The notes beneath the pieces were generated by a model, which saw nothing but the letters and a program-made list of their open reading frames with translations, had not been told where the DNA came from and did no database searches. A stretch of 64,000 nt of DNA, taken from positions 1 to 64,000 of the forward strand of contig JAMAHW010000045.1 of the NCBI GenBank assembly GCA_023627715.1. Direction: 5' to 3'. Positions within the stretch are counted from its first letter, which is position 1. Each line of letters opens with the position of its first letter. The DNA comes from Periconia sp. R9002 (lineage: Eukaryota; Ascomycota; Dothideomycetes; Pleosporales; Periconiaceae). Positions 44,200 to 56,687 of the stretch are shown piece by piece. The position numbers and the translations under genes are program-made.

Positions 44200-47100
44200 A
44201 TGAGACCCCGCGTGCCCCTCCCGCGCTCTTATAGAGCTCCTGCACGCTGGGCTTTTTTTCTACATCCTCCTCTTCACCCCACAATCCAATTGCGTCCCCG
44301 TCCCCTCTCCCGCAGACTCCTTTCCACCTCACAGTCAAAAGCGCACACGACGCCCACCATGGCGCTCAACGCCTCGAGCCACAACATCACCGGCGACCGC
44401 ACGACCCCAAACACGGCTGCACCCCCAGCCGTCGGCGAAGACAGTGCCAAAGAGATTCTTGAGCACGCGAACAAGGAAGCTACGGGACAATCGGCGCCTG
44501 GCGTTGACGGCGGCGAGAAGAATGTCGAGAAGAAGGTGAAGACTGAGAAGGAGCTCGAGAAGGAGCGCAAAAAGGCAGAAAAGGACGCAAAGTTCAAGGC
44601 AAAGAAGGCTGCTCAGGCTGCTGCCAAAGGGGGAGCTGAAGCAGGGCCTGCAAAGGAGAAGAAAAAGGCAAAGGCTGAGAAGGAGGTGCTGCCTGAATAC
44701 GTCGAGGAGACTCCCAAGGGCGAAAAGAAAATCCTCAAGAGCCTGGACGATAAGGAGAGGACGGCATACGTTCCCAAGGTCGTCGAGAGCGCATGGTACG
44801 ACTGGTGGGAGAAGGAAGGTTTCTTCAAGCCCGAGTACAACTCCCCAGACTTCGAGAACGGCAAGGTCAGTCCAAAGGGCACCTTTGTCATCCCGATTCC
44901 ACCTCCCAATGTCACCGGTCAGTTGCACTGTGGGCACGCTCTCGCCACAACCCTCCAGGACGTTTTGATCCGATGGTATAGGCAGAGGGGCTACACAACG
45001 CTGTTTCTCCCTGGCTGCGATCATGCCGGCATTGCGACACAGAGTGTTGTTGAAAAGATGTTGGCGCGCCGGGAAAACAAGACACGGTATGATCTCGGGC
45101 GGCCTGCTTTCATCGAGCGGACACATGAGTGGAAAGAGGAATACCACCAGTCCATCACCAGGGTCCTGAAGCGTATGGGCGGCAGTTTTGACTGGACCCG
45201 GGAGGCTTTCACCATGGACCAGAACCTGTCCGCCGCTGTCTCAGAGACTTTTGTCCGACTGCACGAAGACGGTCTCATTTACCGTTCTAATCGCCTCGTT
45301 CACTGGTGCACAAAACTAAATACGGCACTATCGAATTTAGAGGTCGATAATAAGGAGCTGACGGGCAGGACTCTCCTCGACGTTCCCGGGTATGACAGGA
45401 AGGTCGAATTCGGCGTCCTAACCTACTTCAAGTACCCAATTGAGGGAACTGATGAGCACATTGAGATTGCAACTACACGTCCCGAAACCATGCTTGGTGA
45501 TACCGGTATCGCCGTGCACCCTGCCGACGAGCGGTACAAACATCTCATCGGAAAGAAGGCAAAGCACCCCTTTGTTGACCGCAGTTTGATCATTGTCGGC
45601 GACGACGAGCTAGTCGATATGGAATTCGGTACGGGAGCGGTCAAGATCACCCCCGCCCACGACTTCAACGATTTCAGGACTGGCCAGAAGCACAACCTCG
45701 AATTCATAAACATCCTGACCGATGACGGCCTACTCAACGAGAACGCTGGCGAATTCCAGGGCCAGAAGCGCTTCGACGCTAGGTATAGCGTTGTTGCCAA
45801 GCTCAAGGAACTTGGGCTTTATACCAAGACGGAAGATAACCCGATGAAGGTCCCCATCTGCTCTCGGTCCTCGGATGTCATCGAGCCCATCATGAAGCCT
45901 CAGTGGTGGATGAAGATGGAAGGCATGGCCAAGGAAGCTCTCAAAGTCGTCGAGAACGGTGACCTCAAGATTCGCCCAGACAACTCGGAAAAGATCTACA
46001 AGCACTGGATGAACAATATCCAGGATTGGTGTCTGTCGAGACAGCTTTGGTGGGGACACCAAATCCCAGCATACTTTGTTACGCTAGAAGGAGGGTCGGA
46101 AGGGCTCTCTGAAGACGAGTTGTGGGTCACAGGGCGGACAGAGGAGCACGCGAGGGAAAAGGCCGAGAAGAAATTCCCTGGCAAGACCTTCACGCTGAAG
46201 CGAGACGAGGATGTCCTCGATACTTGGTTTTCCTCTGGTCTATGGCCCTTTTCGACGCTGGGCTGGCCCAACGACACCGCCGACCTCCGCAATCTATTCC
46301 CTACCTCTGTTCTTGAGACTGGATGGGATATTCTGTTCTTCTGGGTCGCCAGGATGATCATGTTCTCTGTCTACCTCACTGGCAAAGTTCCCTTCCACGA
46401 GGTCTACTGCCACTCGCTTATTCGCGACAGCGAAGGCCGCAAGATGAGCAAATCGCTCGGCAACGTCATTGATCCCGTCGATATCATGCAGGGTATTACG
46501 TTGAAGGAGCTGAACGACAAGCTCAAGGCGGGCAACCTGGATCCCAAGGAGCTTAAGAAGGCGGAACAGTACCAAAAGACTGCCTTCCCTCAGGGTATTC
46601 CGGAGTGTGGTGCCGATGCGCTGCGCATGGCTTTGGTCGGCTACACAACCGGAGGCGGCGATATCGCATTCGACGTCAACGTCATCCACGGATACAGGCG
46701 TTTCTGCAACAAGATCTATCAAGCTACCAAATTCTCGCTCGGTCGACTTGGCAATTTCACGCCCCGTGCGACCGTCACCAAGTCTGGAAAGGAGACGCTA
46801 CCCGAACGATGGATCCTGCACAAGCTTTCGACGAGTGCGAAGAAGATCAACGAGCACCTGGAGAAGCGTGAGTTTTCACTGTCCACGCAGGTCGCCTACA
46901 AATACTTTTATGGCTTCCTCTGCGATACCTATATCGAGAACTCTAAAGCCATCTTCGACGAAGGTACCGAAGAGGAGAAGGAGAGCGCCAAACAGACTCT
47001 TTACACTGCCATTGAGGGAGGTCTCCTTCTCATCCACCCCTACATGCCCTTCTTGACCGAGGAGCTCTGGCAGCGTTTGCCCAGGAGGGAAAACGACAAG

Positions 47101-47658
47101 ACACCTTCGATCACCGTCGCAGCCTACCCCAAATTCCGCGAAGACTTTGTCGACAACGCGGCCGAGGCAGAATACGAGCTCCTCGTCGGCTGCTCAGAAG
47201 GCCTCCGCTCCCTCACCAGCGAATACGCCATCAAGGAGTCCGGCTCGACCTATATCCAGGCTTCCACCGAAACGGCTCACAAGGTCCTGTCTGCGTCCAC
47301 ATCCCTCCCTTCGCTCCGCTCTTTGGCCGGCAAGAGCGTCTCGTCCATCCAGATCCTGTCTCCCAGCGACCCGGCACCCACCGGCTGCGCCGTCTACACC
47401 GTCGGCACATCCGCTACGGCGTATCTCGACGTCAAGGGCCGCATCGACATCGACAAGGAGATCCGCAAAGCGCAGGATCGCCTCAAGAAGGCCAACGAAA
47501 CGGTCGAGAAGCAGAAGAAGATCATGGACGATGAGTGGGAGGCCAAGGTCAGCGAGGTGGTCAAGGAGCAGGAGAAGGAGAAGCTCAAGGGCGCCCAGCT
47601 CGATGGGGCGAATTGGCAGAAGAGCTTGGAGCAGTTTGAGCGGTTGAAGATTTCGTAG
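44200..47658 (+). CDS. VAS1: Valyl-tRNA synthetase, probably dual-targeted
   Basis: A single exon gives 1152 residues. The class I signatures are [15 protein letters not shown] (the HIGH motif as His243-Cys-Gly-His) and KMSKS at about residue 748. The valine editing domain has [12 protein letters not shown] and the [12 protein letters not shown] block, and [15 protein letters not shown] is typical of ValRS. The C-terminal 80 residues form the basic coiled-coil arm ([15 protein letters not shown]). A Lys/Glu/Ala-rich stretch precedes the core. The first 53 residues, up to the second ATG at 44359, are Arg-rich with no acidic residue, like a mitochondrial presequence. The first ATG has a weak context (T at -3), while the second is strong (CACCATGG). 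In yeast one VAS1 gene makes mitochondrial and cytosolic enzymes from two starts, and the same is inferred here. Confidence 0.95.
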
Positions 47659-48027
47659 TAGCTTTTAAAAAGATGTGGCGGTTTGTAGATCGTTTCTGGC
47701 TTTGTATGTATTAGAATATGGGATTCATTAAAGAATGCTTTTTTCGTATTCTCGCCTTCCTCTCTCTGTCTCTCTCTTGACGCCAACCCCCAGCAAACAC
47801 TCCCCCGCCTATTCATCCATACTCACTTCAGCCACACAAATCCTCCACAATCCTATTATCCTTTGTACACAACTTTTCTTCCCGACACAATAACGACGAT
47901 TCTCATCGTCGTCGTCGTCGTCGTCGTTCATATCCCGAAAATGTAAACATGATGTGGATGTGGATGTTAGGTCCAATGTCTTGTGGAGGTCTTGCTTCTG
48001 CCAAACATGGATGTTAACAGCGGTGTC

Positions 48028-48360
48028 TTTTAGAACACACACCACTCTTCCACCGAACATGTACTCTGTTGATAGCACGTTTTAGAACACGCACACTCTT
48101 CCACCGAACATTGTCTGTTCTGCAGTAGCTTTTAAAACACGCACACACTTCCACCGAACATGATTGTGTGCACGTGTGTGTTTGAGGACAGACACCACGT
48201 GCACTGAACATGACCGCGAATTGCAATGGGTATGAGTTTTAGCACACACCTTTCCACCGACATGACCGTGTTCATGTATGGGTTTTAGAACACACACACA
48301 CACACACCCCTACGTCTACCGAACATGTTGTTTCGGATTTCGTTTTTTAGATCGCACGCT
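48028..48360. repeat. Nested short repeat inside the array
   Basis: A subunit of about 50-60 bases is repeated about six or seven times. On the given strand it reads TTTTAGAACACAC, then a CA-rich part, then CTTCCACCGAACATG. It is the box found once or twice in each larger unit, amplified here at the array's left end. A run of (CA)n lies inside the copy at 48290-48307. Confidence 0.8.
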
Positions 48361-51283
48361 CTCTTCCACCTCACCGTGTAGAGTGAAAAAAAGGAAATGA
48401 TCGAGTGTTGGGAGAGCTTATATACCTGTCTACACACGTGCACGCTATACCCTTTCTACCTAGTTTGCCGGCTTTTCTCACTTAGATTTCACTGTATGGA
48501 GCGGTGGTAGTAGTGGTGGTGATGGGATTTATCGTCGTCGTCGTTGATGTGTGAAAGTTTAGCATAATGTGGAGATGTTGTGGGACCCTTTCTTATGCCA
48601 GCTATAGCGGTGAGGATGGTTGTTTTGGAGCACGCAGTTCCACCAAACATGTACCTTCGTGCCTTGTTTTTTAAAACACGATCTTCCACCAAACATAAAC
48701 TGGGTTGCTCACAGTTTTAGAACACCCCCTTCAAACGCACCCCGTGCAATTGTGTAGAAAAGAGAATGGGAGAATTGGGTTTTGGGTTTTGGGGGTGTTT
48801 ATATACCTTTCTACGTGCACGCTATTGCCTTTTGAACTAGCTGATCTAGACGGTTCTCGGGTTTGAAGGTGTAGATTGGTAGTAGTGGTGACATTCATCG
48901 TCGTTATCACGCTCTGTAACATGTCATGGTAATATAGGCGTAGGCTGGAGTTTTATAGGAATCTTCCTCCGATAAATCATGAATTGTGACTGTTTGCCAT
49001 TTTAGGACATCCCCCTTTCCACCATGGCTCACTGCTGGCTTGAATTTGAACACACCCTTTCCCACGCAGCCCGCGCAATCGTGTGGAGAAGAAAAAGAAA
49101 AAGCGATTAAGTGTTGAGGGGGTTTATATACTTCAATATATGCACGCTATACCTTTTCTAACTAATGCGTAGTATATAGAGCGGGAGTAGTGACGAGATT
49201 CATCGTCGTTGTCACGCTTTTCCAAAAGTCTGATGGTCATGATATAGACGGGAATTAGACACTCACACACCACCAAACATGTATGACACGCACTCACAGT
49301 TTAGAACACCCACTTCCACCCACCATAGGCTATAGGGGACGACTATTTAGGACACCCCCTTCACACGTATCCCGTGCAATTGTAGAGAAAGGAAAGGAAA
49401 ACTGGGGTGCTGGGGGGTTTATATACGTCTCCACATGCGCTATACCCTTTCCAATCACCAGCTAATAAGCACTGTTCTAGGATAAGTATGGAGCATTGGT
49501 GATAAAGATCGTCATCGTTAAGATATAGGCACCCTCTCAACAGTCGGAAAGGTTTGAAAACCAATACCCACAGAATCATGTTTTGAAACACCTCTCCTGC
49601 TACCAACATTTCTGTTTGTCAATCAGTTCTTAACGACACATCTCCCATCTCTATGCGCCACCCGCGCAATCGTGTAGAGAAGAGAAAGAGAGTATTCGAG
49701 CAAAGAAGGCATTTATATACCCGTCTCCTCCTTACACGCCTTACCCTTCCTAGTTATCTTAACCGATGGCCTTCTGTGGTACATGCTAATGAACGTGGTG
49801 ACGATGGTATTTTGCATCATCACTACTATTCTCAAAAACCTAGCTCCCGACAATAGACAGCCCATTTTGAAAAATTCCGACGCGCCAACTACCCATCAAC
49901 ATCCAATCTGACGTGTTTGAAGACACCTCGACACTCCCAACGCGCAATTGTGTAGAGAAAAAGGAAATCAGAGAGTGTTAGAGGCATTTATATATTCATG
50001 CCTTCCATATACACCTTACCCTTTCTAGCAACCCAACTAATCTAATCAGTTAGTACTCTTTCTGATACATGTTAGTAATGAAGCTGATGACGATGGTGCT
50101 TTGCATAATCACCATCGTTGTGTCCTTTAAACTTTGAAAATGTGGCTCTTGAAAACAGCCATCTAGTTTTCAGAACAATCTTTCATGACCAGCATCCCGC
50201 GTTGTTTTTGATGGAGCAACTTTTGTTAAACCCCGCTACCACATACATACTATTTTGTACAGAAGAGAAAGAAAACCATTGAAAGGATTAACGGGATTTA
50301 TATATCTCATTTTATGCCCTAACCCTTTACTTTTTCTAGTCAGTGTTGGATTTACCTAGTCATTTACTGGTAAGTGACAATGGTGACGACAGTGATGGCT
50401 TGCATCATCGCGGCCACTTTTTGAAACTAGTGTGAGAGTATTGTTAAGTCCCAATTTTAAGAAACCCTCTACTTCAAAGCTACCATGTTTTCAATGTATC
50501 TTCAACTTTCTTTAAAAAAAAATTAGTTCGCTTCCATATATCTTGATAAGGAGGAAAGAAAGGAAAAATTTACAGTGTCGGCGATCTTTATATACCCACC
50601 GTCTCGCATACACTTTACCGTTTTCAAGTAGTCTAGATGGTTCCCTATAGTAACAAATAAATAAAATGATATGAAGGTGATGATTCTTATCACCACCACG
50701 CTCTGTGAAACTTTGAAAAAGTAGCTCCCGGAATCTCATAGAATTATGATTTCGAAAAGTAACCCCAACCCCAACCGACCATTATGTGGTGGCATGCGTC
50801 TTTTTCATCAGAAAGCTTCTGATCGTTACTCGCATTTATGTACACGAGAAATAGAAAGAAAGAACAATCGCTTCGATAGGATTTATATCCTCTCCCCATC
50901 CCCTATCTTGCCCAATTCTCGCTAGTGGAATCACATCTCCATTAGTAATGCATATAGCTATACAGAGAATGACAATGATGCACCTGTGGCAATGATGAAT
51001 GATGATATTCATCGTCACCACTATTGCCAATTACCCCAGATGCTAAAATTTTAAAAATTCTCACATGGCTCTCCATGTCTTCTAGCGTTTTCTCGTTACG
51101 GTTCCGCCCACTATATCGAAGGCCCTACTCCGGATTATTAGAAGAAAACAATTATATCGCCTACGTAAAACTTGTGCGGTCGTGTAAAAAAGAGAAAGGA
51201 AACAATTCGGGCATTAACGAGGTTTATATACCCTCGTCTCTATCCTATACCTTACCCTTTCTAGCAATAGATACAATAACAAT

Positions 51284-51305
51284 AACGATGATGAGTATCA
51301 TCGTT
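51284..51305. other. Perfect GAT/ATC palindrome in the array
   Basis: AACGATGAT and ATCATCGTT form a perfect 9-base stem around the loop GAGT. It is the clearest of the inverted repeats that occur about once per array unit. Confidence 0.75.
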
Positions 51306-51375
51306 TATTAGTGCAATTATATATCCCTAGATAGCTGATATAATCATGTAACTAGTGTCGTCGAGTTTGTGGAGT

Positions 51376-51602
51376 GGGTATAAATACGTCCTTCTTTTCG
51401 CTCCGTTCTTGCTTTCTTCTTTTCTTTACTACACAAGCGTACGTAATAGAACATGTACGCTTGTTTAATTCTAGAAACAACAAGAGAATGTCTGTGGTAC
51501 GCGTGTGTTCCTTCCGACGGTCATTCATCTTCCATCGAAGTTTTCGAAAACATGTTGAGGGTTATGATAATGATGATTTTAATCACCATCATTAGTTGCT
51601 AA
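51376..51602 (+). repeat. Probable inverted unit within the array
   Basis: On the plus strand GGGTATAAATAC (51376-51387) is followed by a long CT-rich tract (CTTTCTTCTTTTCTTT) ending in ACTACACAAG. This is the same element order that all other units show on the minus strand. After it come a TTTTCGAAAACATG word and a GAT/ATC inverted repeat near 51565-51595. An ATG at 51453 opens 49 codons to the TAA at 51600 with a hydrophobic end, but coding is not supported by the other units. Confidence 0.5.
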
Positions 51603-54600
51603 AACTATAGCACGGCGTGACTATAGGTTAATGTTAAGAAACGAGACTCCACTTCGAACACATATAGATATGCCTTGGGTCTTTTTATTATTCACCTTCT
51701 GCTTACCCAAATCGCGTGTTCGTAATAAGAGAAGGAGACAACTATGACTTCGGCGAAATTTATATACCCTCATCTATCTACGCTTTACCTTTTCCAGCAC
51801 CAGTACGAATTGTCATCGTCACCATTAACGCTCTTCATAGTCTCCAATAATTACTGCGTGATATATCCATCTGTCGAATTTCACACTTCCTACGCCGCCA
51901 AACACATTATGTAGTACCCGATGGACTTTTAGTAGTTCCTACACATGAGCTATCCACGCAGTTGTGTAGAGAAAAAAAGGAAACCGCTTAGTGTTGAAGA
52001 GAATCTATACCTACTCTTCCCGTTGCATGCTTACCTTTCCTGTCCATAAATTAACACAACGATGGCGATGATTGTCATCACCTATCTCTTCTTAGCCCTG
52101 GAAACAAAGGTACATGGAAAACATGAAAGCGACCTTTGAGCAACCCTTCCCGACTCTACAAAAACCATTTTTTTAGTCTTGTTTGGCTTTTTAAAGAGAG
52201 CCCCCCCACAAATAAGCCACCTTGTGTAGAACAAAAAAAGAAAGAAGCTAGAATTTGAGAAGAGCACTAGTTTATATACCCCTCCATAACCTGCCTCCTA
52301 AGCCTGTCTTAGTAATATACTACAATAATAATGAAGGATAATCGCAGTGTATTGTATTAATAACGGTATCAACACAGTAGAAATCCACAATAACGTCCTC
52401 GGCCAGGACGCTACAACAATGATAAGGATCTCCACTACTATCGTCATTGCTATCCTTCAACTCAAAAATCACAGAATTCATTATTCACCAACTCCGCTCC
52501 ACCAAACATAGGTCTTCTTCATTAAGGTTTTTAAAAGAACTTCCACACAACTCTATACAGAAAAGAATAAGAAGAGAGATTTGAGCAATACGGAACGAAG
52601 TTTATGTACCCCATCTCTACCCTACGCACTTTACCTATTCCCGTTACGTGTTACTTACGACAATAGTGAGAAGCATCGCCATCGCTATCGCAGTCACACT
52701 TTAAACATTTCCAGAACGCAGGAGTCATGATTTTATCCCTTCAAACCTACGCTCCACGACACATGGGTTCGTCTTGGTTTATCTTGTTAGGCCACCTCCG
52801 CTTAGCCATGTGTAAAAAGAAAAGAAGGAGGAACGTCAACGGGATTTATATATACCATTCTCAACAGGGAACTACTATAATCCTATTATTCATACATAGC
52901 GAATGATGCTAATAAGAAGCATCATCGTCATCATCGCAAGACCTAGAACCAAAACTTATGAGTTCATGAAAGTAGGTATTTGAAAAATGGAAATACACTA
53001 GGACCACTTGCCCCCCCCTCCTAAACCCATAGAAGGCAAGAAAAGAAATCCAAGCGTAGCAAGGGGGATTTATGCCCTCTCTTAGTGACCCACCTTGCCC
53101 CTTCTAGTAGTACCAACGATGGCAATGGGCATAATCACCATCATCGCAAACCCTAGAAAATAAAACTTACAAATTCCCATGAATCAAAGCTTCAAAAGTT
53201 GAAAAGAGAGTTCCTCCAACCAACTCCCACATGAATCCTTTGCTCGTAGTTTTAAGAAAATTGTTATTCCCTTGTATACAACCGCGTGTAGAAGAAAAGA
53301 AGAAGGAAAGAAGGTCAAAAGGAGGGATTAAATACTTTCTCTTCTGTACCCATCTTACCCTTTGAGTAACACGCAGCGAGTCAACGACGATGATATGCAT
53401 CGCCACTACCTCTAATCGTAGAGGATTTAAAAATGGTTCTCCCATAAGTCGGTATTTTGACACTCCACCAGCGTCCACCAACTATGTAGTTTATTTGGGT
53501 CATTTTAGCGAAAGCTCCTCCCTCGCGCGTGCGATCATATGTAGAAGAGAAGAGAAACGAAGGTTAAAAGGAAGGTTTATATACCCTCTCTACTGTATCC
53601 ATATCACCCTTTCTACACTTTGTGGACTCACTCGAGGTCTTCCCTAAGTTTCATAGCTAGAAACTTCCTGTGCTCAAAACAACGACGATGATAAAAATCA
53701 TCACTGCGCCTAACCCCTAACAAACAAAAACATCACTTATTGACTGACTGGATTTTGCAAAATTCCGACCAGTCCACCAACCATGCTATCGCGCTTTTCC
53801 ATGTTAGAGCAAGCTTCCCCTTTACCCTCGTGCGATTGCGTGTAGAAGAAAAGAATTTGGAGGGACGACGTGATTTAATAGATAGCCAGCTTACTAACCT
53901 TCCAGACAGTACAAATTTGGTGGTCGTAGTAATGAGGGGCGATGGCGATTGATGGAGCTCATCATCACCGCATGTGTCGATTTTCGAAAACTCCGACCAG
54001 CGTCCAGCAACCATGTGAAGGTGTTTCTGATGTTTTAGTTAAAGCTTCCCCACCTCCACGCAATCGTGTGCAGAAGAAAAGAAGGGGGATGTCGAGGGAA
54101 GATGTGGTTTATATACAGTAGCTTACTAACCTTCCAGCCAGTCCTCAAGGGATGATTCTCATCACGATTAACCTCATTGTCGCCATCACTGTCCCTGCTG
54201 CCTAGAAAACTAGAGCCCATGATTGAACACTCCAGCCAACGTCCACCAAACATCTGCATTCTGATACATTGTTTTAGTGCAAGCTTCTCCACCTCCGCGC
54301 GATCGCGTGCAGAAGAAAAGAAGAAAAAATAGAAAAGACGTAATTTATATAGATAACCAGGTTACTAATGCTCTAGCTATCCAGCCCTCAAATTGACGGT
54401 AATGAGACAGGGCAATCATAGCGATGACAATGGCCACTGCCATAAAGTTCATCATCGTAGTTCCCAATGCCCCCCCTTCTCCAAAAACCAAGCATGATTC
54501 ATGTTGCTAATTGTTTTTTCACAAAACTCCCACCCAGTGTCCACCACCCGGGGCCAGTAAAGAAAACAAGGAGAGAAGGAAATCGAGGGAAGTGGTGGTT

Positions 54601-54710
54601 TATATAGGTAGGTAGGTACGTGGGGAGCTTACTAACCTTCTGGTTAACTAGTGTTTAATGTGGCAATGATGAGGGTGATAGTGATGGTGGTGGGGATTAT
54701 CGTCGTCGTC

Positions 54711-55004
54711 GTTGCTCCATTTCGAAATGTCGAAGTCCAAAACCTAGGAACACATGAAGCTACCGCGCTATCGAGCGCAATTTTGTTTAGCGGTTCATGA
54801 AAAAGGATACCTGGATTTGTAGCGATTCTCTGCAAAAAACTTGTGATGATAATAATTCAAATAGGGGGTTTGCATTATATGTGCTCTTCCGTGATCAGAA
54901 AATCACTCTTCCACCTTGAGAAATACACCTTCACGTTTCTATCTACGTGCAAATCCAACTACAACCCGCCTCGATTCAGCAATACATGCCCACATTACCA
55001 ACCT
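54711..55004. other. Right flank of the array
   Basis: About 290 bases of non-repetitive DNA lie between the last array unit and the 3' end of the permease gene. No gene is seen. Confidence 0.45.
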
Positions 55005-56687
55005 TTAAGTGTTGAACTGCCACCTCGGATGCCGATCCCCCAACTTCAAATCCTCCAAACTATCATGAAAACCACTCGTCTCCGGATTCTCTACCATAAA
55101 CTCCTCCTTCTCCTTATTCTCTTTCGCTAGAATCCACCACAGGGCCGACACAACCACAATGTTCCCGACTAGATATCCCAGCGCGACCGAATGTCCCAGC
55201 ACATACCTCGGTGCCGTTTTAGGGCGATATAGCTGCGTTCCGATGACGGCGCCCAGGTTGCCGATGGAGATTTGCATGGCGTTTGCGGTGGCGCGTTTGG
55301 TTTGGCCGGAGACATTGACGGCGGGCCAGGAGAGAACGAGCGCAACCGACGGGTAGATGCCCATGGCGGCGAAGAAGGTGCCTAGGTAGGATACGCCGGG
55401 TTTCTTGGTGGGGTGTTCGTTGGTGAGGAGGATGATGTAGCCGATGATGGCGAGCGTGGAGGTGATGAGGGTGAAGAGGGCACGGCGTTTGTATTTCTCG
55501 GCGAGGGCGGCCCAGCCTACGGTTAGGATGGTTGCGGCTGCGTAGGGGGGGATGGTGAGGAGCTGGGATTGCGCTGCGGTGTAGCCCATGTCTTTGATGA
55601 TGGTTGGCTGGGGGTTGTTAGTTGTGGTTGGAGAGGGTTGGAGTCGGGGTGACTTACGAGGAACAGGGAGAGCGTGTATAGTGGTAGACTCATGGTGTGA
55701 AAGCACGCGCCGTATAGCCAGACCTTGACATCCTTGAGGCCTTCCAAGACGGCGCCCCATGTGAATTTCTCATTATTGGTGGCGTCGCTGTCGACTCTGA
55801 GGCGCGCTTTGATAAAGGTGCGTTCTTCTTTGGACAGCCAACTCACGTTTTCGGGATAATTTGAGATGAACCAGTACGCAATGGCAGCGATAACAATGGT
55901 AAGAAGACCTTCCTATATTTCGTAAGTATAATTACGGCCCCGAAGATCACTCCACGTACGATAATGAAGATCCAACGCCATCCATTGTAGCCACCCACGC
56001 CGCGCATGTGCCCTATTCCGTACGCTAAAATTCCACCAAAAGCGCCCGCCAGCGAAGCACAGGAGAAGAACAGCGAGATTCGATATTGACGCTCATCTCG
56101 TTTATACCACATAGACAAATAGTACACCACCCCCGGGAAAAGACCGGATTCAGTCATACCCAAGCTAGTACATCAAGTCAGAAACCGCGAAAGGACAGAT
56201 TGGGGGAAATACTAACAAGAATCGCACAACAAAAAAGCCAGCGAGGTTCTGCGTAACACCCATGAGCGTCGCAACAATTCCCCAGGCAATTGTCAAGGTA
56301 GGGAGCCAGAACTTGGGTGTGGTCCGCTTGAGAATGATGTTACATGGCAATTCGAAAAGTACGTAACCGAGAAAGTAGAGAGTGAGACCAGTCAAATACT
56401 GGTTTCCCGTCATGTGTAGGTCCGTTGTAAGCCCCTCAATTCTGGCGTTGGCAACTTGTAGAAATGTTAGCAATGCTTTTGTGGATTCAGAATTTGAGCT
56501 CACCATTGCTGCGATCCAGGAAGGAAAGCAGGTACAAGATGGAGACGGCCGGTAGCAACCTCAGATCAAGCTTCCTGAGAAGCTTCTTCTCGCTTACCGT
56601 CGCAGTCTCCAGGACATCAAGGTCATCGTTGGAAGACGTCGACGCGCCAGGCGGTTCAAGTTCAGTTTTGGTTTTCTCCGAAGCCAT
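55005..56687 (-). CDS. MFS permease of the DAL5/TNA1 (anion:cation symporter) family
   Basis: Five exons (56687-56504, 56454-56217, 56164-55960, 55912-55658, 55607-55005) give 494 residues with about twelve helices. The family words are rebuilt only by splicing: LDRSNVANARIEGL at residues 56-69, FVVRFFLGMTESGLFPG, and GWRWIFIIEGLLTI near 203-216. LSLFLPTIIKDMGY is also present. Known members import allantoate, nicotinate, pantothenate, biotin and related carboxylates with protons at the plasma membrane; the substrate of this one cannot be assigned. The N-terminal 40 residues and the C-terminal tail (SGFHDSLEDLKLGDR) are cytoplasmic. Its 3' end faces the repeat array. Confidence 0.92.

Follow-up and report, generated by a model that had tools for sequence, protein, structure and literature searches.

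Why would a fungal genome carry one promoter-like sequence many times in a row, in front of segments that resemble each other hardly more than shuffled DNA does? The question is raised by positions 47880..54720, minus strand, of a 64,000-nucleotide stretch of Periconia sp. R9002 (GenBank assembly GCA_023627715.1, contig JAMAHW010000045.1, positions 1 to 64,000; the whole stretch is referred to as the window). A sequence-only reading had described a serial array of promoter-like units there, without a conserved open reading frame (ORF), and had proposed noncoding RNAs or very short peptides as products. The array belongs to a multi-locus family: counting the window, about ten loci spread over eight contigs of this 43-Mb pleosporalean genome show matching anatomy, with the spacing of the elements kept. 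The units are noncoding, and their core promoter is shared with two U2 loci and the U1 locus. Probably, then, these are small noncoding transcription units of RNA polymerase II (Pol II) with a core promoter of small nuclear RNA (snRNA) type, whose bodies have diverged to saturation and whose promoters have been retained.

Anatomy of the array

Direct reading together with a script gave 22 head-to-tail units on the minus strand, with TATA boxes from 54606 to 48424. The array thus stands as described, its count corrected from at least 21 to 22. TATA-to-TATA spacing is 222-381 bp, in keeping with the proposed period of 220-380; the sole exception, 536 bp between 51766 and 51230, contains an oppositely oriented promoter. 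The fixed order that had been claimed, of box, TATA, CT tract and CTACAC-like start, was recovered by reading and script alike. The features are as follows.

47880..54720, minus: whole array, 22 units, between an MFS (major facilitator superfamily) transporter gene and a valyl-tRNA synthetase gene
54680..54707, no strand: palindrome-like element GACGACGATA..CCACCATCAC, ~98 bp upstream of the first TATA
54551..54640, minus: unit 1 core promoter; TTAGTAAG, TATA 54606, CT tract
54296..54385, minus: unit 2 core promoter; TATA 54351 with TTAGTAAC 17 bp upstream, start TCTGCACGCGATCGCG
54060..54149, minus: unit 3 core promoter; TATA 54115 with TTAGTAAG 14 bp upstream
53825..53914, minus: unit 4 core promoter; TATA 53880 (TATTAAA) with TTAGTAAG 17 bp upstream
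53528..53617, minus: unit 5 core promoter; TATA 53583
53279..53368, minus: unit 6 core promoter; TATA 53334 (TATTTAA)
53021..53110, minus: unit 7 core promoter; CATAAA as a weak TATA near 53076
52797..52886, minus: unit 8 core promoter; TATA 52852, without a box on the motif list applied
52551..52640, minus: unit 9 core promoter; CATAAA as a weak TATA near 52606
52336..52411, no strand: dispersed repeat inserted in unit 9, with copies at nine other places in the genome
52223..52312, minus: unit 10 core promoter; TATA 52278
51954..52043, minus: unit 11 core promoter; TATA near 52009 (TATAGATT)
51711..51800, minus: unit 12 core promoter; TATA 51766
51379..51450, plus: inverted promoter in the 536-bp gap; TATAAATAC (TATA 51379), CT tract, CTACAC
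51175..51264, minus: unit 13 core promoter; GGGTAAGG, TATA 51230
50832..50921, minus: unit 14 core promoter; TATA 50887
50539..50628, minus: unit 15 core promoter; TATA 50594
50249..50338, minus: unit 16 core promoter; TATA 50304
49939..50028, minus: unit 17 core promoter; GGGTAAGG, TATA 49994, start CTACACAATTGCGCG
49664..49753, minus: unit 18 core promoter; GGGTAAGG, TATA 49719, start CTACACGATTGCGCG
49370..49459, minus: unit 19 core promoter; TATA 49425
49075..49164, minus: unit 20 core promoter; TATA 49130, start CCACACGATTGCGCG
48750..48839, minus: unit 21 core promoter; TATA 48805
48369..48458, minus: unit 22 core promoter; GGGTATAG, TATA 48424
48010..48340, minus: expanded ~50-bp sub-repeat, about seven copies after the last promoter; CATGTTCGGTGGAAGAGTGTGCGTGTTCTAAAAC-like plus a variable 15-25 nt
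47885..47930, no strand: terminal palindrome GACGACGACGATGAGAATCGTCGT, after the last unit
last frame ends at 55005, minus: MFS transporter gene, array neighbour
44200-47658, plus: valyl-tRNA synthetase gene, array neighbour

By a motif list composed after the units had been viewed, 17 of the 22 have a box variant 22-30 bp upstream of TATA. Most window boxes are GGGTAAG or GGTATAG variants, at the same distance from TATA as the boxes of other arrays. TTAGTAA is found 14-17 bp before TATA in three units (54351, 54115 and 53880) and TTACTAA 37 bp before TATA in unit 10 (52278); in unit 8 the motif list used found no box. The repeat in unit 9 is 77-84% identical to its nine other copies. The nearest named protein to the neighbouring valyl-tRNA synthetase is that of Byssothecium circinans (79%).

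Sister arrays

A DNA search of the whole genome found no second copy of the window array, so its relatives must be far diverged. Sister arrays were sought by patterns of promoter anatomy, not by sequence similarity, with the backward pattern as the control. TATAWAN{28,58}TTCTTYACAC gave 66 matches against 6 backward; the 66 reduce to 53 distinct sites, of which arrays on contigs C1, C3, C12, C15, C22, C49 and C60 account for about 42. TATATAAACCCYYY followed by a CT tract gave three matches, at C3 and C60. TTAGTAAGN{10,40}TATATAA gave 50 against 9 backward; many of these are AT-rich repeats or contig ends, and the C1 and C12 arrays are also among them. Besides the window (C45), array loci are thus placed on C1 (two), C3 (two), C12, C15, C22, C49 and C60. 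In total, 112 units were parsed, with TATA positions taken from script output and then adjusted by eye: C45 22, C3a 18, C3b 2, C60 14, C1a 6, C1b 11, C12 21, C15 6, C49 7 and C22 5. These totals are lower bounds because several arrays were read in part and ten units at loci L098 and L099 stand outside the 112. At C60 (L078, G000:C60:152849-154388), a predicted open frame that by eye resembles a membrane protein lies between two array blocks.

Repeat-induced point mutation (RIP) was considered as the source of unit divergence and is unsupported for most pieces: the composite RIP index is -0.11 in the window array and below 0 in nine of eleven other array pieces, the exceptions being one C12 piece (0.27) and C22 (0.12). 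Very AT-rich contig ends (L055, L059, L060 and L071) score 1.46-1.99, which suggests that RIP is or was active in this genome, though most array pieces are without its signature.

A core promoter shared with some snRNA genes

The typical unit has a box ~25 bp before TATATAAAC, a CT tract, a YACAC start and a GTGATGA..TCATCAC palindrome. In many units outside the window the box reads TTAGTAA or TTAGTCA; the GGGTAAG and GGTATAG variants are mostly from the window. The former match Yap1/AP-1 elements (TTACTAA, TTAGTAA). A Reb1-type site was considered for GGGTAAG, a lead on which a literature search gave nothing. Of the 112 units, 49 have an AP-1/Yap-type site within 75 bp upstream of TATA, where shuffles give 3.3 and 99 transcript segments give none; 31 of the 49 sites stand at 22-28 bp. 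Some arrays were found via the box itself. In the five that a box-free pattern alone revealed (C1a, C3b, C15, C22 and C49) the site is present in 11 of 26 units, almost all of which belong to C15 and C1a; scoring two more stretches for the box gave 5/5 units (C15) and 0/5 (C49).

The joint pattern TTAGTCAN{12,42}TATATAAAC is rare, with 10 matches in 43 Mb and 0 for the backward control. The ten are five array units, U2, U1, and single sites on C21, C91 and C107. The last (G000:C107:104499-104531) is a box-TATATAAAC-CT promoter with no RNA or protein gene recognised downstream. Across 136.7 kb outside the arrays, a count that left out loci fetched by box patterns and other snRNA loci, a script found a TATA+CT promoter only twice, once at the U2-like locus L036, and in both cases without the box; inside arrays the same script found five in a 2.2-kb stretch of C15 and as many in 1.9 kb of C49.

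Rfam searches gave four U2 loci above the cut-off (L033-L036), one below it (L037), and U5 above it (L044); the U1 locus (L043), the 5' end of which reads ATACTTACCT, matched below the cut-off. U2 loci L033, L034 and L035 and U1 carry TATATAAAC with a CT tract that runs to the start, the tract between TATA and start being common to these loci and the window units. A TTAGTCA or TTACTAA box is placed 26 bp before TATA at L033 and L035 (TATATAAACCC), and TTAGTCA is placed 34 bp before it at U1; the box-TATA core of the arrays is thereby found at two of four U2 loci and, more widely spaced, at U1. The array core is thus common to some, not all, Pol II snRNA loci of the genome, and the box is universal neither in the arrays nor at the snRNA loci. 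The box may be tied to a fungal snRNA factor.

Two observations concern the snRNA genes themselves. The U2 gene L035 (G000:C23:183843-184089) appears to be interrupted by an intron-like insert of ~56 bp relative to L033 and L034, with the spliceosomal features GTAAGT...CTAAC...CAG seen by eye. A hairpin is predicted shortly after the snRNA at L033, L034 and U1, with GAAGAAG or a GAGGAAGA-like sequence on its 3' side; by eye, such a sequence is also present at L035. These hairpins call RNase III processing hairpins to mind.

Conservation along the unit

Identity was compared in the 70 of 112 units that have an anchored palindrome and sufficient length, as mean pairwise values within arrays, between arrays and against shuffled partners. 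TATA gives 0.71/0.69/0.54, the box 0.61/0.56/0.54, the start 0.58/0.58/0.53, the palindrome 0.60/0.60/0.52 and the CT tract 0.68/0.66/0.65 (mostly composition). The values of TATA, CT tract and palindrome are inflated, since these elements served to pick the units (the palindrome for the 70), which box and start did not. Two body segments give 0.57/0.55/0.55 and 0.58/0.57/0.56, and the far-upstream segment 0.56/0.55/0.54. Short motifs enriched in the array bodies are TTTCGAA, YTAAAA and CATGKKTG. The view that the promoter-like parts are retained as units is upheld by this profile, in which the excess is confined mainly to the elements.

The profile bears directly on the simplest alternative, an ordinary decaying tandem satellite whose founding unit chanced to carry a promoter and whose elements are of low complexity or recently homogenised. 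Such a satellite would be arranged head to tail, as the arrays are; neighbouring units in the window are slightly more alike (0.661 at distance 1, falling to 0.62-0.635 for units 10-12 and 18-21 apart), bodies from one array are more alike than shuffled ones by 0.02, and simple GAT and CT tracts are among the conserved parts. It would not account for body and far-upstream segments near the shuffled background with box, TATA, start and palindrome above it, nor for TATA, start and palindrome identities that are similar within and between arrays. Box-TATA spacing is retained in many units, the element order is kept at about ten loci, and the same core precedes two U2 loci and U1. A satellite of this kind is unlikely, and an evenly decaying one is disfavoured on the pattern of identities because the excess is concentrated in box, TATA, start and palindrome. 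Conservation spread evenly over the unit, which the sequence-only reading had named as an outcome that would refute it, is thus not what the units show.

The palindrome

The GAT/ATC inverted repeat noted at the outset is real. Its arms are strongly conserved: at a score of 15.4, with consensus half-sites written after the units had been read, it is found in 66% of 107 scanned units and in 2% of shuffled ones, and 7.7% of 300 window segments taken as a control score as high. Of 83 intervals, 78 hold a palindrome that reaches this score; its distance is 90 +/- 20 bp to the TATA that follows and 206 +/- 32 bp from the one that precedes it. The first units at C45, C1b, C60 and C3a have a palindrome 89-141 bp upstream; the short upstream stretch of the first C22 unit has none (C1a, C15 and C49 are outside this comparison). 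In the window a palindrome also follows the last unit.

An RNA hairpin selected with covariation, for which the sequence-only reading had proposed a check, found no support in three arm-swap scripts, the outcomes of which were negative or slightly opposite. Cognate arms are, if anything, slightly weaker paired than swapped ones, and in the poorer-anchored script 401 of 2000 permutations were at least as strong as the cognate pairing. Because swapping leaves pairing undiminished, the palindrome is not supported as a selected hairpin. It is more likely an upstream or boundary DNA element, given the lack of covariation, its position ~90 bp before the next TATA and its presence before first units. 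Palindrome scores at snRNA loci are 11.8-11.9 at three U2 loci, 14.9 at L037 and a borderline 15.7 (with a 17-base gap) at U1; on these values it is not shown to be common to snRNA promoters.

A palindrome of this sort would also suit a DNA platform, in which palindrome, basic leucine zipper (bZIP)-like box and TATA form a protein-binding array, serving as a factor sink, a boundary, an origin or a chromatin element, and any transcription is a by-product. Bodies that are hardly conserved, a palindrome conserved as sequence without covariation and placed both upstream of first units and, in the window, behind the last, and one inverted window promoter would all follow. Against it, TATA, CT tract and YACAC start, which keep their order, are what a working core promoter consists of, and the core is also present at the U2 and U1 loci. 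We regard the platform as quite unlikely.

Sub-repeats, coding capacity and RNA class

The ATGTTTGGTGG box, which had been listed among the fixed elements, exists but is less constant than the others: it is part of a ~50-bp sub-repeat, expanded behind the last promoter at 48010-48340. On C21 (L089) and C91 (L091), a single array-type promoter precedes over 1.2 kb of sub-repeats that resemble the final ones of the window, many of them 52-56 bp long, with a semi-constant part and ~20 variable bases.

That sub-repeats begin at an ATG, and that a few short frames (for example, one of nine codons) can be read by eye, would be expected of tandem genes for very short peptides, with the ATG at the CATGTTTGG box. 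The longest ORFs of 93 units, however, average 22.9 codons against 21.9 in shuffles (though 15 of the 93 reach 40 codons), the frames differ between units read by eye, and seven ORFs of the window array have no Pfam match. Since ORF lengths match shuffles and Pfam finds nothing in these seven, the units are noncoding; of the two products first proposed, the noncoding one is retained and the peptide one, lacking any conserved ORF, is extremely improbable.

Would the RNAs be of Sm class, or otherwise structured and snRNA-like, with a conserved sequence, an Sm site and a 3' hairpin? The snRNA-type promoter would fit, and TTTTCGAA before the palindrome resembles the order of Sm site and hairpin. 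Canonical Sm-type sites (R-A-U4-6-G-R) are not enriched in the parsed units (0 against 0.9, and 5 against 5.7), the palindrome shows no covariation, and the window has no Rfam match at gathering score, the best sub-threshold one in 47000-55500 having an E value of 2.3; beyond the window, the all-Rfam scan covered only L089, L091 and L092. Products of this class are very unlikely. GTGATGA was also considered as part of a C/D small nucleolar RNA, for which Rfam gave no match in the window, no search for box D having been made.

Proposed mechanism

The retained-promoter reading can be put as a sequence of steps. The window array would be one of about ten tandem arrays in a dispersed family of small noncoding Pol II transcription units. 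Each unit would be served by a core promoter of the same type as that of some snRNA genes, with a box ~25 bp upstream of TATATAAAC; the box would be AP-1/Yap-like (TTAGTAA or TTAGTCA) in many units of other arrays and a diverged GGGTAAG-like form in most window units. After TATA would come the pyrimidine tract and, ~43 bp on, the YACAC start. The GTGATGA..TCATCAC palindrome ~90 bp upstream of each TATA may serve, in the arrays specifically, as an upstream or boundary element. From each promoter a short RNA would start and run ~160 nt to the next palindrome, and the predicted RNAs would carry only loosely placed motifs (YTAAAA, CATGKKTG and TTTTCGAA). What is selected may be transcription itself or a varied RNA repertoire, and not any single RNA sequence.

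Several points weigh against this reading. i) Promoter firing, a box-binding factor, the RNA end and the target of selection are all inferred. ii) The exact box is present in 0/5 C22, 1/7 C49 and 0/2 C3b units, and in the window the exact site is found in 6 of 22 units, at 14-61 bp. iii) At the snRNA loci, no box was found at U2 L034 and L036, two of the four above the cut-off; the sub-threshold L037 has it at 51 bp; U5 L044 is without box, TATATAAAC or CT tract; and the U1 match itself is under the Rfam cut-off. iv) Strong promoters of fungal protein genes also take the form of TATA plus CT tract, and an AP-1/Yap-like bZIP protein could bind the box, so the snRNA-type label need not imply an snRNA factor. 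v) The units were picked by TATA and CT tract, some TATAs being set by eye, and their conservation partly reflects this choice. vi) Cognate palindrome arms pair no better than arms swapped between units of one array. vii) All comparisons are within one genome.

A bolder step would be to see here a new class of fungal RNA genes, with about ten arrays and well over 100 units, in which promoters are selected, bodies are free or driven to diversify, and a short-RNA repertoire or repeated transcription is the selected function. We offer this tentatively, as possible and on balance doubtful.

Comparison with known systems

A literature search, with most subscription journals outside its coverage, returned no description of such arrays. 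A type of promoter found at U2 and U1 loci too has been retained many times over at about ten places of a single genome; the putatively transcribed parts have meanwhile kept almost no overall similarity. If the units are transcribed, this would mean either a large RNA repertoire or selection on the act of starting transcription, and we know of neither in fungi. The arrays also offer a ready test set for how fungal core promoters of this kind, with the box ~26 bp before TATA, are specified.

The closest relatives are the U1 and U2 genes of the same genome, which share TATATAAAC, the pyrimidine tract and, at some loci, the box. They are single and dispersed and encode a conserved RNA, whereas array units hold no recognised snRNA; the array palindrome also scores low at the three U2 loci tested. 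The U5 gene has another promoter. Yap1/AP-1 response elements have the sequence of the box in many units, but the array box is fixed ~25 bp before TATA and is GGGTAAG-like in most window units. The ~50-bp sub-repeat with a variable spacer, in the window and on C21 and C91, is reminiscent of fungal minisatellites, with the difference that these sub-repeats are located behind an array-type promoter; the C21 and C91 sub-repeats resemble the repeat-spacer arrangement of clustered regularly interspaced short palindromic repeats (CRISPR) in layout only. Tandem snRNA, spliced-leader (SL) RNA and 5S ribosomal RNA (rRNA) arrays are similar in layout. They consist of head-to-tail small RNA units with their own promoters, homogenised and yielding one product, whereas the units described here have diverged nearly to background outside their promoter elements.

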